The notes under the pieces are model-generated. The model saw nothing but the letters and a program-made list of their open reading frames with translations, made no database searches and had not been told where the DNA came from. Position numbers and translations under genes: made by a program. From Spirogloea muscicola (lineage: Eukaryota > Streptophyta > Zygnematophyceae > Spirogloeales > Spirogloeaceae), in the NCBI GenBank assembly GCA_009602725.1, contig WELB01000056.1:30313-81396 (forward strand): a DNA stretch of 51,084 nt. Reading direction: 5' to 3'. Of the stretch, positions 8,276-48,034 are shown piece by piece; the first letter of the stretch is position 1, and each line of letters starts with the position of its first letter.

Positions 8276-9251
8276 GGCTCGGAGAAGGGGCTGCTGCGTC
8301 GGAGTNAGCGCCGTCGTCGTCTTCAGGTGGGCCGTCTGCGCCGCAGCCCGGCGCCCTGAACCCTAAACGCTAAACCTAAGCCCACCTGCCGACGGCAGTG
8401 GCGCCGCCACGCCGCCTGAACCCTGAACCCTGAACCCTAAACCCTAATCCTGAACCCTAAGCCCGAAAACCCAAACACGGAAAGATAGCCCCATACTAAC
8501 CCACAGCTTTAACCCATCTTCCCAATGCTTTGGTATACAGCAAGTCCTACTGCCCATACTGCGTCCGCCTGAAGAAGATAAACACGAAAAGGCTAACCCA
8601 AAATCTACCCAAAGATCAAAACCACATATCACACTTCTTTGGTATGCAGCAAGTCGTACTGCCCATACTGCATCCGCGTGAAGAAGCTCCTCAAGTCGCT
8701 TGGCGTGCGGGCGACGGTGTACGAGCTCGACCACGAGGCGGACGGCCAGGCGGTGCAGGCGGCGCTGGCCGGCTGGACGGGCCAGCGCACTGTGCCCAAC
8801 ATCTTCGTGGGCGGCTGCCACATTGGCGGCTGCGACGGTCAGCGCCCACTAACTGCAGCTTAATCATGACCCTCGTAGTCAGTGGCATATAAGTCGTCCG
8901 ACTATAAGGAGGAGTGACTGAGAGTCTCTGCTTGACTTCAGCCCGTAACAACACTCACTGGGCTACGCGTTTATTCCCGCCTCCAATAGTGGACGCTGCC
9001 CTCTGTCGTTTGACTGCAAGCTTAGCAGACTTAGCCCAGCCATCACCATGATACCGGATTCATCTCTGAAAGCTTAGCCTAGTCAGGTCATTGAAGTATA
9101 ACTGTGACAAGACCACTAACCCCTGACTTTGTTTGCTCCTACGGCTTGCTACTGACTTGACCACTCGTCCGCTGCGAACGCGCCAGACACGGTGGCCGCG
9201 CACAGCTCCGGCCAGTTGATGCCGATGCTGAAGCAGGCTGGCGCCCTCTGA
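8233..9251 (+). CDS. GRX: Dithiol (CPYC) class I glutaredoxin
   Basis: Small thioredoxin-fold oxidoreductase that uses glutathione to reduce disulfides or remove glutathione from proteins. Exons are 8233-8326, 8650-8837 and 9187-9251. Exon 1 ends AVVVFS and joins to [14 protein letters not shown]. The rest shows the CPYC active site, the cis-Pro loop TVPNIFVGG, the glutathione-binding GGCDDT split by intron 2, and the end [11 protein letters not shown]. The length, about 115 aa, is typical of the family. The frame from ATG 8233 to AVVVFS is off by one base, and the break falls at the ambiguous base 8306. If that symbol stands for two bases, the reading frame is continuous. Without correction the codon TNA there may read as a stop. 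Exons 2 and 3 are secure; exon 1 and its start are inferred. Intron 1 holds telomere-like repeats and a duplicated piece of exon 2. The Ala/Val-rich leader ([15 protein letters not shown]) is not a clear transit peptide. Confidence 0.85.
8354..8463 (+). repeat. Interstitial telomere-like CCCTAAA/CCCTGAA repeats
   Basis: Two clusters, 8354-8382 and 8415-8463, of CCCTAAA, CCCTGAA and close variants lie inside glutaredoxin intron 1. CCCTAAA is the complement of the TTTAGGG repeat found at the telomeres of plants and many green algae. The copies are degenerate, so this is an old insertion or repair scar, not a chromosome end. Confidence 0.8.
8474..8690 (+). repeat. GRX: Tandem duplication covering the 5' part of glutaredoxin exon 2
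   Basis: Two units of about 106-111 bp lie in tandem. Both begin AAACACG(G/A)AAA, at 8474 and about 8580. Both contain TTTGGTAT(A/G)CAGCAAGTC followed by codons for K-S-Y-C-P-Y-C-(V/I)-R. The second unit is the working exon 2, with acceptor at 8649. The first copies the acceptor and the active-site codons but runs into the unit boundary after about 50 bases and has no GT donor. Splicing into the first copy would shift the frame. Confidence 0.8.
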
Positions 9252-43933: not shown

Positions 43934-44012
43934 ATGGCGGCCCTGCCAGCGCCTCCAGGTGAGGCTTGCCGGACCGCTTAATCGTCAATCTAAGCATTGA
44001 GTGCAGGCCGCC
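43029..44012. promoter_or_regulatory. Divergent promoter region between beta-COP and NFU
   Basis: The two start codons face away from each other across 984 bases. The beta-COP side is GC-rich to about 43420. The middle, to about 43780, is of average composition. The NFU side holds a (CCG)n run and ends GCAGGCCGCCATGG, a strong plant/algal start context. No clear TATA box was seen. A 95-codon minus-strand frame (43648-43935) is open but unrecognised. Confidence 0.5.
43898..43932 (+). repeat. (CCG)n microsatellite in the beta-COP/NFU divergent promoter
   Basis: About 11 near-perfect GCC triplets lie about 80 bases before the NFU start codon, probably in its 5' UTR or core promoter. Translated on the minus strand they give polyalanine in an unsupported frame. 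Confidence 0.8.
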
Positions 44013-47000
44013 ATGGCTCTGCTCCAGCTCTGTAACTCCGGCCGATTTGGCCAGAGCGAGCAGGCGCGACAGGCGCCAGTACTATCTGCAATGGTAGTTC
44101 AGCTTGCTTTGAAGGAGACGTAGTAGCCGCAGGTGTATAGAGGAGAGCTTAGCCTAAATGTTGCACTAATTGGGGTAAGATGTGAAGACATCAGCCGCCG
44201 AGTAGCTCTCCCTCAGCCTACACAGGCCTTTGCTCCTCCTATCAGCCATGGCCTGGCCACTCGGAAGGTACTGATTGTGCGCATTGCCTGTGATGCAGCT
44301 GTTACCGGCGCCAGTTCTCGCTTGATGACAGTTTCCAGCTGCGAGACTGAGTCAAGAATAAGCACGTCATTGAGGACAAAGAATCAGGTGAGTTGCTCAC
44401 AAGCGAATGCGCGAGCTGAATCATATCTCCACAGGAGCAAGATCGTAGATAATTGCAGTCCTCTGGGTTGTCATGGCACATATTCTCTATCTGAGTTGCA
44501 ATTCTAGTTGATGGCATGAACCTCTTGCTAGTGTACATTCGACAGCTTTAAGTGACCAGCTTCCTCACCTAGACTGTTCTGGCTGGCACGCAGATATCTA
44601 CCACTGGCTTGTCCGCACCTATCAAGTCCCTGCCTCGAGAGCGTCTGGAAGTTGTGAGTTGCAACTCTGTCCTCCATAACTTCTTAAGAACACCGGCTAC
44701 AGACAAGTGATTGCTTCTCTTTGCAGTAGCAGTTGAGCCAATTGCCGAGTCCCCAATTGCTGCCGCACCACAGCAGTCATTTGACAGTTGCACGCGCAGA
44801 CTTTGCTCCTCTTTGGGCTTTGGGGCGCAACTGATTCTCCTTTTGTGCTTGTTGCAGCTTGCACCTGGGCCTACACCCACACACTCAGCAAGGAGGTACG
44901 ACGCCTCCACTTGTACTCAGGTTCCCTTTCCGTATCTTAAACTTCAGCATCATCCTCTATCCAGCAGTTTGGCTTGCCAGACCCTGAGAACTATGGCTCA
45001 ACATAGCAGAAACAGGTTCTCTTGCAACCTGTATCTGCTGTGCAACCTCTTGGCTGTAATTAAAGTCATATATTGCAAATGTCCACTGAATATACAGAAT
45101 AGACGAGCACATGTCACTGGTGTCTCAGATTGGTGCTGCAATGCTTTTTACATAGCTCAACGACAAGCTCAAAGCTCCAATGTGACAATGGCAATGCCCT
45201 ATTTCCCATGCCGGCTTGTGTCATGCAGGCTGTACATCCAGGTCATGAAAACTGGAAGCAGCGGAATCAGTACAGAGCAGATGGAAAAGTTGCAGTCTTT
45301 AGGAGGAGTGGTTACAGATGATGCTGTGCCCGAAGGTCATCAAGGGCTCCACGGTTTTCTATATGGCGACAATGGGGCAGGTTGGCCTATGGCTGATCTG
45401 GTGCTGTTGCCTGTCAAAGAAAGCACCTGATGCATCTCCTGGCCATGATTAGTCGGGTAATGCTGGTCTTGCCCTATGTGCAGATGTTCATGATGCACCG
45501 ACTTCCACCTACCAAGCAGAATCTGGTCAGGATGACGGGTCTACTGTGATGTTGTTCTCCAACTATGTAGACCCAAGGTAACCTTTCGGATATACTTTGG
45601 CACATCTTCCTATTGGAAATGGAGAGTGGATGTGTTTACCGTTCACAGGGTTGGAGTTTGTGCAGCCAAGCATGTCCTGCTCTTGTCTAACTTGGAGAGG
45701 ATGTAGATTCTTTCATTTTCTAGACATTTTCAGCAAACTTACACACCATAGTGAGGCTACATATTGAAACTGTTGTATCTCATGTCTGCAGATGCTAGGC
45801 ATATCATAAGTTGATGTCAGATTCTGTGCTATGCAACATGAATTTCGTTGACATGACTGTGCAGGGACGGGATCAAATTTGCTGGGGTGTACGCAATATA
45901 TGCTGAGGATGGTGCATTGCAGTATATTGGTTACTCCAGAAATGTCATTCTTACTATGAAGGTCAGTACCAGGACGGTGACCATGGTTCTTTTCTGCACA
46001 GGTTGATCATGTATACTTCACCAGTCATCCATGTGGACTTAACCACAGTGTCAGCCAAAATATGTTGTGTGCAGCCATGCTTGCAGTGAAACTTTTTGAC
46101 ATCCTAGTAATTGTGCAGGCTCATCGGAGTAGAGTTGGAGCTGCCAGATGCTCGGCAGTTCGTGTCAAGATGTACACCGAGGCAGCCATGGTCACCCGAG
46201 CTAGACTGCAAGAGGAATGTGAGCTCTGGCTTGCACAAACTGCTCCACCACCAGGAAACAGTACTGATCGGTGAGGAGCGTCCTAAGTCTCTTAACCTAG
46301 ACTTTTAAACCCTAAACCCCGGTAACGATGTGAAATCCTGCTTGGGGTCACATTGTTGCGACAGCTTCTTCCTTGGACCAAGTTCTAGTACTGTGGACGC
46401 AATGGAAGGATTTTCACATGGTATTGAAGGCTGTCAATACTGCTCAATGCAGGGCTTTGTGGGAGGGGACAGCAGGCACTGCGGCAGCCTACATGACAGA
46501 GGAGGACAAGGCGGCTTATGAAGAGAAGAAGCTAAAGATGAGGAAGGCCATGGGGGAAAATCTGTATGATGATGTAGAAGGGGAGACAGAGGACTCTAAG
46601 ACACGCCGTCTTCGGCTCCTGCAGGTCAATCGTCTCAGACCCTTGCTTACTTACCTTTTATGCATAAGTCAAGTCAAATAGAAATTGGTGGCATCCCCTT
46701 GCTTTTGCAGTGACCCTTGAAGCCTCTTACGAGATTTATCAGTTGGTGGGCAGCGAGCATGGAGTACACAGCTGACTGCTTCAGAATAAGTGTGGAATCC
46801 ATTGAAGTCTAGCAATTGATAGGTGGAAGTGTCAGGCAACTTTTTGTGTCGCAGTCGGACTACAGGCTTAGCTAGACATCCGGTTAGAGAGCTTTCTGTC
46901 AATGGGCATCAATATGCTTGTGCAGGCAGTAGAGGGCGATGATTGGAGCAGCGTGATTGATGGCCAAACAACAGAAATGCTGCACGAACAAGAGCCTACC

Positions 47001-48034
47001 ACTTCTGCGCAGACAGGCAGCTCTGTCACAGATGCAGCTGCCGCAGTCCCTGGACAGATTATCAGCCCGTTTGCGAGGCCTGGAGGGCCCTTGATGGGCA
47101 GTCAGGAGTCTGCTGCTGAGCTGGAATTGACAGTTGCCAACGTGGATATGGTCTTGAATGATGTGCGGCCTTATTTGATTGCGGACGGAGGCAATGTTGA
47201 GGTTGTTGGGGTGGAGGATGGCATTGTGGCACTCCGCTTGCAAGGTGTGTACCGTTCAATCAGTAACTTGTTGCACCAAGCGGCCCCCATTGTTATGCAC
47301 CCCTTTTTTGTTTATTTCTTTCTCTTTGATTGGGTCCTGCCAGCCAATTTGCCACAACTGGGTAGCTTTGCGATCTTGCAAATGCTTATTACTCTGGGTT
47401 ATGTTCTTGAATATTTCGAGCAAGAGTGTTATTCTATACTGCAGATTGTTTCAGCACACTAGTGAGTCCTTCATTGTTAACCACTGGAGCTTTCCCCCGC
47501 CCTAAAAGGACGTTTCACTTGCAGGAGCATGCGGTACATGCCCAAGCAGCACATCGACTATGAAGATGGGCATCGAGAGAGCCCTTCAGGCCAAGTTTCA
47601 AAGCTCCTTAAGGGAGGTGGTGCAGGTGGACAAGATAGACTTGGGAGCTACAGTAGAGGTGAGACAGTCAATCTTGCCTTCCCAAGGTTCAGGTCACAGG
47701 GTGTTGAACCACACGCGTAAGTGGTCATGGTGGCGCCACCGAACGCAGGGCCTCCTGATTCTTCTACTTGTGGATGTTGAAAGACAGGCGTGCAAGTCAT
47801 GTCTTCTTCTTGACATCCTTCTTCATGCTTGCTCAGAGTCTGGACGCATTTCTGGAAGGCTTGCGGCCCGCTATCACAAACTATGGGGGGAGTGTTGAGG
47901 TTGTAAGTGTGGACAGGGTCAAGGGTGCGTGCCTCATTGACTTTAAGGGCCCAGCTCCAATCAGCATGGGCATTCAAGCTGCCGTCAGGGACAAATTCCC
48001 TGACATGCGGACTGTGAATCTTGTTAGTCCTTAA
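44013..48034 (+). CDS. NFU: NifU-like (NFU) iron-sulfur scaffold protein with an N-terminal GIY-YIG-like domain, probably plastid
   Basis: NFU proteins receive Fe-S clusters and pass them to apoproteins; in plants the two-NFU-domain forms are plastidic. Thirteen exons: 44013-44093, 44246-44267, 44299-44387, 44573-44653, 44858-44895, 45229-45380, 45484-45577, 45865-45961, 46119-46270, 46453-46624, 46926-47244, 47525-47658, 47837-48034; 1629 nt, 542 aa, all phases closing. Residues 1-90 are Ser/Thr/Ala-rich like a transit peptide. Residues about 187-268 match the N-terminal domain of plant GRXS16: GVYAIYAEDGALQYIGYSRN, then AHRSRVGAARCSAVRVK, ending APPPGN. A charged linker follows (YMTEEDKAAYEEKKLKMRKA). 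NFU domain 1 (about 394-477) has DVRPYLIADGGNVEVV and the cluster motif Cys435-G-T-Cys438 (GACGTCPSSTSTMKMG). NFU domain 2 (478-542) lacks cysteines, as in plastid NFU1-3. Exons 1-5 rest on splice sites and phase only. The first exon could differ; the fusion itself cannot be explained by a frame error. Confidence 0.9.
46303..46320 (+). repeat. Short CCCTAAA telomere-like tract in an NFU intron
   Basis: TTTTAAACCCTAAACCCC contains two CCCTAAA-like units, just after the exon ending PPPGNSTD. It is short enough to occur by chance, but it shares orientation with the two longer intronic tracts in the window. Confidence 0.45.

Follow-up and report, generated by a model that had tools for sequence, protein, structure and literature searches.

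An NFU1-type iron-sulfur carrier from Spirogloea muscicola whose GIY-YIG-like module resembles a stand-alone cyanobacterial protein

The known GIY-YIG-NFU fusion and the Spirogloea locus

The fusion of a GIY-YIG-like domain to a plastid NFU protein, a carrier of iron-sulfur (Fe-S) clusters, is already published (PMC3721309, from 2013; PMC8003979, from 2021), both for Chlamydomonas NFU1 and for further algae and some land plants. The later paper lists it for Chlamydomonas NFU1 (Cre17.g710800), many microalgae analyzed, and all land plants except dicots; on non-dicot angiosperms the two papers disagree. Also in print are the likeness of the NFU-borne module to the N-terminal domain of the glutaredoxin (Grx) GRXS16 and the idea of two cyanobacterial ancestors (PMC3721309, PMC8003979), as well as the suggestion that the NFU part may supply metal to a nuclease (PMC3721309). 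The role of a GIY-YIG-like domain on plastid Fe-S carriers was posed as a question in 2013 (PMC3721309), and PMC8003979 describes the domain as "of unknown function." Cre17.g710800 is among 253 higher-confidence photosynthesis candidates (PMC8448359), and an Ostreococcus tauri gene annotated as a GIY-YIG nuclease, ostta16g00515, which may or may not be related to these proteins, is among those most strongly upregulated in long-term iron limitation (PMC4855317). Here, we analyze a gene with this architecture in a 51,084-nucleotide stretch of Spirogloea muscicola DNA from contig WELB01000056.1 (the window).

We propose, with a probability of about 0.7, that the gene encodes a plastid NFU1-type Fe-S carrier, probably green algal, with a probable transit peptide, a module that is homologous to a stand-alone cyanobacterial protein (here type A) and does not cut DNA in the usual way, an NFU domain with a CxxC motif, and a degenerate NFU domain. 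The assignment to a green alga is probable from gene content and from the published distribution of the fusion. The proposal is built on one reading frame, conservation in three copies, homology of the module to type A over nearly its full length, and the absence of the catalytic Arg. The architecture itself is already known; what is new is the type A evidence on the origin of the module, the missing Arg, and a conserved Cys. A first-pass annotation, made from the letters of the window, had stated that its novelty would fall if the same fusion were already annotated across green algae, and by that clause it does fall (PMC3721309, PMC8003979).

Among described proteins, Chlamydomonas NFU1 (Cre17.g710800, formerly NFU3) and the algal, moss and spruce GIY-YIG-NFU proteins share with the window protein a GIY-YIG-like N-terminal domain on a plastid NFU. 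Compared by description only, Chlamydomonas NFU1 is said to be without a degenerate second NFU domain (PMC8003979), whereas the window protein has one, in agreement with the description in PMC3721309 of some algal proteins. Arabidopsis NFU1-3 likewise have a CxxC NFU domain followed by a degenerate one, but as described in PMC3721309 they are without a GIY-YIG module. GRXS16 (GRX6) has a related GIY-YIG-like core on a plastid Fe-S carrier (PDB entry 2LWF for the N-terminal domain), and its catalytic Arg is absent too; it differs in having a CGFS glutaredoxin as the partner, in having no type A flanks, and in that its best cyanobacterial matches, for the copy in this genome, lie outside type A. 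Finally, the type A protein is homologous over nearly its whole length to the N-terminal ~207 amino acids (aa) of the window protein, but stands alone: 24 of 25 type A open reading frames (ORFs) encode 214-232 aa, too short for an additional NFU domain, and the remaining one is broken (98 aa).

Genomes of the Chlamydomonas NFU1 kind carry a separate NFU2/3-type gene, as does this one. Here, it is present in three copies (C206, C195 and C222; L007 and L008 were read), with both NFU domains in one open frame. The same search of the genome gave no NFU4/5-type mitochondrial gene, a result that its exon-wise design may limit.

One reading frame in three homeologous copies

The gene was rebuilt from raw genomic sequence, and all exons are predictions from DNA. 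Eight exons at 45229-48034, separated by seven GT-AG introns, form a single open frame of 438 codons from 45230 to the stop and encode the GIY-YIG-like module and two NFU domains. Four further upstream exons (43934-43958, 44299-44387, 44594-44653 and 44858-44895), with in-frame junctions and a predicted Ser/Thr/Arg-rich start, extend the model to 509 aa, in which the GIY motif begins at residue 160; judged by eye, its N terminus may be a plastid transit peptide. The features, in window coordinates, are as follows.

43934..43958, plus strand: proposed first coding exon (MAALPAPP...), with ATG and GT donor, in frame with the next exon; two homeologous copies are identical at 25/25 and 24/25 positions; putative transit-peptide start
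44299..44387, plus strand: proposed exon 2, Ser/Thr/Arg-rich, transit-peptide-like; AG/GT borders, in frame; equal length and 77/89 identical in both copies; predicted
44594..44653, plus strand: proposed exon 3; AG/GT borders, in frame in the window and in L002 (51/60 identical); exon end and donor missing in L001; predicted
44858..44895, plus strand: proposed exon 4 (LAPGPTPTHSAR); AG/GT borders; end phase suits the split codon at 45229; two copies are identical at 37/38 and 38/38 positions; predicted
45229..45380, plus strand: exon 5, N-side flank of the type A module (VPEGHQGLHGFLY); AG/GT borders; match to type A ORFs
45484..45577, plus strand: exon 6, N-side flank of the type A module; AG/GT borders, in frame
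45865..45961, plus strand: exon 7, GIY-YIG core with GVYAIY and LQYIGYSRN, Thr in the catalytic Arg position; from gene model, core alignment and hhalign
46119..46270, plus strand: exon 8, remaining GIY-YIG-like core, with the conserved Cys (residue 196 of the 509-aa model) and PPPGN; from gene model and core alignment
46453..46624, plus strand: exon 9, C-side part of the type A module (EEKKLKMRKAM); from gene model and type A comparison
46926..47244, plus strand: exon 10, end of the type A module (DDWSSVIDGQTTE), linker and start of NFU domain 1, holding the fusion joint; from gene model and type A comparison
47525..47658, plus strand: exon 11, remainder of NFU domain 1, including the CGTC motif; from gene model and Pfam
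47837..48034, plus strand: exon 12, degenerate NFU domain 2 (no CxxC) and stop; from gene model and Pfam

This model agrees with the first-pass annotation on the exon borders 45865-45961 and 46119-46270, the introns from 45381 to 47836 (all seven of which keep the frame, as had been claimed), the exon edges 45484 and 47658, the GVYAIY...LQYIGYSRN...PPPGN motifs and the two NFU domains. We could not reproduce its protein length of 542 aa or its placement of the module at residues 187-268.

In a Pfam search, the 433-aa protein matched NifU in two stretches (E 4.1e-28) and GIY-YIG weakly, below the cut-off (E 0.019; E 0.0023 for the 96-aa domain alone), and 2LWF, the N-terminal domain of AtGRXS16, matched the module at E 8.8e-7. 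The observation of the first-pass annotation holds. The GIY and YIG motifs of the GIY-YIG nuclease superfamily are present (GVY...YIG). NFU domain 1 has CGTC at residue 402 of the 509-aa model, and NFU domain 2 has GPAPISM and no cysteine pair, the arrangement of the plastid NFU1-3 type. The GIY-YIG-like domain is N-terminal to NFU in one reading frame, and NFU stands in place of the C-terminal CGFS glutaredoxin domain of GRXS16. A GRXS16 gene misread as NFU was ruled out, as the GRXS16 genes were located separately in the genome (L005 and L006).

The locus is present in the genome as three homeologous copies: the window (C56), L001 (C68) and L002 (C217). Among these copies, the eight exons at 45229-48034 have no gapped column, and their variable sites at codon positions 1, 2 and 3 number 13, 9 and 67 (P = 4e-16), which upholds the earlier claim that the fusion is not a chance neighbor. 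Every one of the seven introns has gapped columns, 1 to 43 each. The pairwise ratio of nonsynonymous to synonymous substitution rates (dN/dS) is 0.07-0.11 over all eight exons and, in the GIY segment, 0.18-0.26 (three pairs). From these ratios and the codon-position pattern, the GIY part is therefore under purifying selection within the same protein. The four upstream exons are conserved less than the remaining exons (e.g., 77/89 in both copies for exon 2). L001 is without about 140 bp opposite window positions of about 44635-44774, a stretch that takes in the donor site of proposed exon 3. A PF00462 glutaredoxin match lies at window positions 8642-8824 on the plus strand (G000:C56:38954-39136), and both C68 and C217 have a match similarly distant from NFU1, suggesting three large homeologous segments.

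Catalytic positions and a conserved cysteine

We aligned 60 rows, comprising the three NFU1 copies, three GRXS16 sequences (two of this genome and 2LWF), 24 type A proteins and 30 proteins of a second stand-alone cyanobacterial family, type B. The catalytic Arg position was taken to be the eighth residue past the Gly of YIG, as in I-TevI and UvrC. No row has Arg there: NFU1 has Thr (2) or Gly (1), GRXS16 has Ser (3/3), type A has Ser (23) or Thr (1), and type B has Ser (29) or Gly (1). Arg is present in 8/8 control GIY-YIG loci; these were extracted, with no demand for Arg, from 18 Pfam matches across five cyanobacterial genomes. Comparing the module with cyanobacterial GIY-YIG domains, hhalign gave a probability of 84% and a gap-free register over 27 columns, although the GIY-YIG sequences in that alignment (A3) had been chosen by a pattern demanding Arg and are biased in this respect.

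Other positions of the motif are kept. The GIY Tyr and the His are present in 60/60 rows, the Asn of PPGN in 59/60 (the other row has a gap), and the aromatic residue of YIG in the NFU1 copies. Of the catalytic positions named by the first-pass annotation, the Tyr is retained throughout and the Arg nowhere. Two columns are candidates for the catalytic Glu. The first holds Cys in NFU1 (3/3), Trp in GRXS16, Arg or Lys in type A, and Glu in 11/30 type B rows; the second holds Gln in NFU1 (3/3), Ser or Thr in GRXS16, and Glu in 24/24 type A and 28/30 type B rows. There are also Glu residues nearby. If the second column is the true one, the cyanobacterial proteins would have retained the catalytic Glu and the plastid fusions would have lost it.

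These residues bear on whether the module is an active nuclease whose metal or cluster is supplied or gated by the NFU part, after the suggestion in PMC3721309. The retained GIY Tyr, YIG aromatic, His and PPGN Asn fit such an enzyme, and the N-terminal domain of AtGRXS16 (AtGRXS16-N) is reported to have endonuclease activity with Ser in the Arg position (PMC5890173). We nonetheless consider a nuclease unlikely, given the lack of Arg in all 60 rows, the Cys, Trp, and Arg or Lys in the first Glu column of NFU1, GRXS16 and type A (notwithstanding the type B rows with Glu), and the Gln of NFU1 in the second. A binding or regulatory module is more probable than a nuclease. Of the original interpretation, a single gene with NFU and a GRXS16-related GIY-YIG-like N-terminal domain stands, while its nuclease aspect is weakened by the Ser, Thr or Gly in 60/60 rows, with the activity reported for AtGRXS16-N as a caveat.

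One Cys is kept in 58/60 rows (NFU1, 3/3; type A, 24/24; type B, 30/30; and 2LWF). This residue is probably Cys123 of AtGRXS16, because it is the sole Cys within the aligned 2LWF stretch. In AtGRXS16, a disulfide between Cys123 and the Grx Cys has been reported (PMC5890173).

Origin of the module

To find relatives of the module, we scanned bacterial genomes with the NFU2-type domain of this genome, which gave cyanobacterial genomes that were then searched with profiles. An earlier bacterial genome scan with alignment A1 had given no match, its patterns probably being too strict. Type A and type B both match the module, and the first profile detected matches in 6/8 chosen genomes and 61/194 of the phylum. 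The type A profile, of seven rows with the window protein among them, had matches at E 1e-15 or better in 103/386 cyanobacterial genomes. Type A itself is present in 25/386 (≥214 bits); the next genome scores 101 bits, with a shorter type B protein. For one type A protein taken as an example, NCBIfam gave no family at E ≤ 1, and its Pfam GIY-YIG match was below the cut-off.

We then compared the module and its flanks with a database of 37 cyanobacterial ORFs (6 type A and 31 others; E cut-off of 0.1 for flanks). The best matches of the window module are all six type A ORFs, at 36-39% identity over 205-212 aa (123-139 bits), a homology that spans nearly the full length, flanks included; the other 31 match mainly in the GIY core (45-76 bits). 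The N-side flank (residues 1-78 of the 433-aa protein) matches the six type A ORFs at E 4.6e-6 to 0.002 and no other of the 37. The C-side flank matches the six at E 2.6e-14 to 2.7e-8, and its one further match is a type B ORF at E 0.03. For the GRXS16 of this genome (L005), the best 29 matches are non-A, with type B the best match, and all six type A ORFs fall between ranks 30 and 37 of 37. The label "GRXS16-type" given to the module by the first-pass annotation thus applies at the superfamily level and not to its closest affinity.

In a tree of the GIY core (60 rows, 81 columns), NFU1 clusters with type A and GRXS16 joins type B; the support, 81/91, is not strong. Since the approximately unbiased (AU) test leaves other groupings unrejected, flank homology is the stronger argument on origin. 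The flanks argue for separate origins of the NFU1 and GRXS16 modules, and the tree is in line with this, though a common origin is left unrejected. A module copied from GRXS16, or both modules derived from one eukaryotic domain by exon shuffling, would give the two fusions a single origin, and would be in keeping with the 31% identity over 85 aa between the NFU1 module and GRXS16 and with the AU result for NFU1 plus GRXS16 (p-AU 0.36). We regard this as improbable, as both flanks match type A (the only other match being the C-side type B ORF at E 0.03), the best matches of GRXS16 lie outside type A, and the best tree places GRXS16 with type B. That two adjacent genes were wrongly joined is scarcely credible: the end of the module (DDWSSVIDGQTTE) and the start of NFU domain 1 lie in the same exon, 46926-47244, so that the fusion cannot stem from a wrong splice choice, the three copies keep the joint without indels, and the same architecture is published (PMC3721309, PMC8003979).

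About 1.5 kb on each side of the 25 type A loci was examined for neighbors; clusters shared by at least 3 loci were considered, and five example ORFs were identified. ABC transporter ATPases of varied kinds form a cluster in 6/25 loci (on the opposite strand in 4/6), and their best NCBIfam matches, below the cut-off, are the iron-dicitrate FecE for one and a phosphonate family for another. Of the other neighbors, a sugar-type permease occurs at 12 loci, an aldo/keto reductase at 7 and a BFA1/DUF3598 protein at 5. A peptide-pattern search of viral contigs with the window domain and with a type A protein found no relative.

The nuclear genome has at least two further type-B-like GIY-YIG genes, apparently stand-alone: L164 (C14; with like matches on C16 and C38) and L165 (C102; with one on C193). 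Neither appears to have Grx or NFU over the short stretches that were read, and the end of L165 (RFDPKLKEQGLLDLK) resembles cyanobacterial type B.

A possible role for the module

Several results weigh against a type A-derived, noncutting module on an NFU1-type carrier. AtGRXS16-N has the same Arg-to-Ser change and is reported active (PMC5890173), and loss of Arg therefore does not prove inactivity. On 81 columns, neither NFU1 plus GRXS16 nor type A plus GRXS16 (p-AU 0.29) is rejected. The 25 type A loci have no consistent Fe-S assembly gene nearby. Finally, both GRXS16 copies of this genome (L005 and L006) have Val at the conserved Cys, which counts against a shared Cys-based role and against a general redox switch.

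If the protein is nevertheless the plastid carrier that we propose, two chains would behave like those of known NFU proteins, sharing a cluster through CGTC and handing it to plastid proteins. The GIY-YIG-like module would not cut DNA by the usual mechanism, and would instead serve as a binding or redox-regulating module. The least certain step is that the conserved Cys perhaps couples to CGTC, by analogy with the report on AtGRXS16 Cys123 and the Grx Cys (PMC5890173).

A broader and more doubtful idea, which we offer tentatively, is that the cyanobacterial ancestor had two distinct GIY-YIG-like proteins, type A and type B, both catalytically degenerate, which were independently fused to NFU1 and GRXS16. 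These proteins would have worked already in cyanobacteria with Fe-S clusters or thiol redox, and would represent an unrecognized class of Fe-S assembly partners rather than nucleases. Evidence that the module descends from a stand-alone cyanobacterial protein opens its role to testing: type A and type B genes could be knocked out in cyanobacteria, and the absent Arg and the retained Cys offer specific residues to examine.

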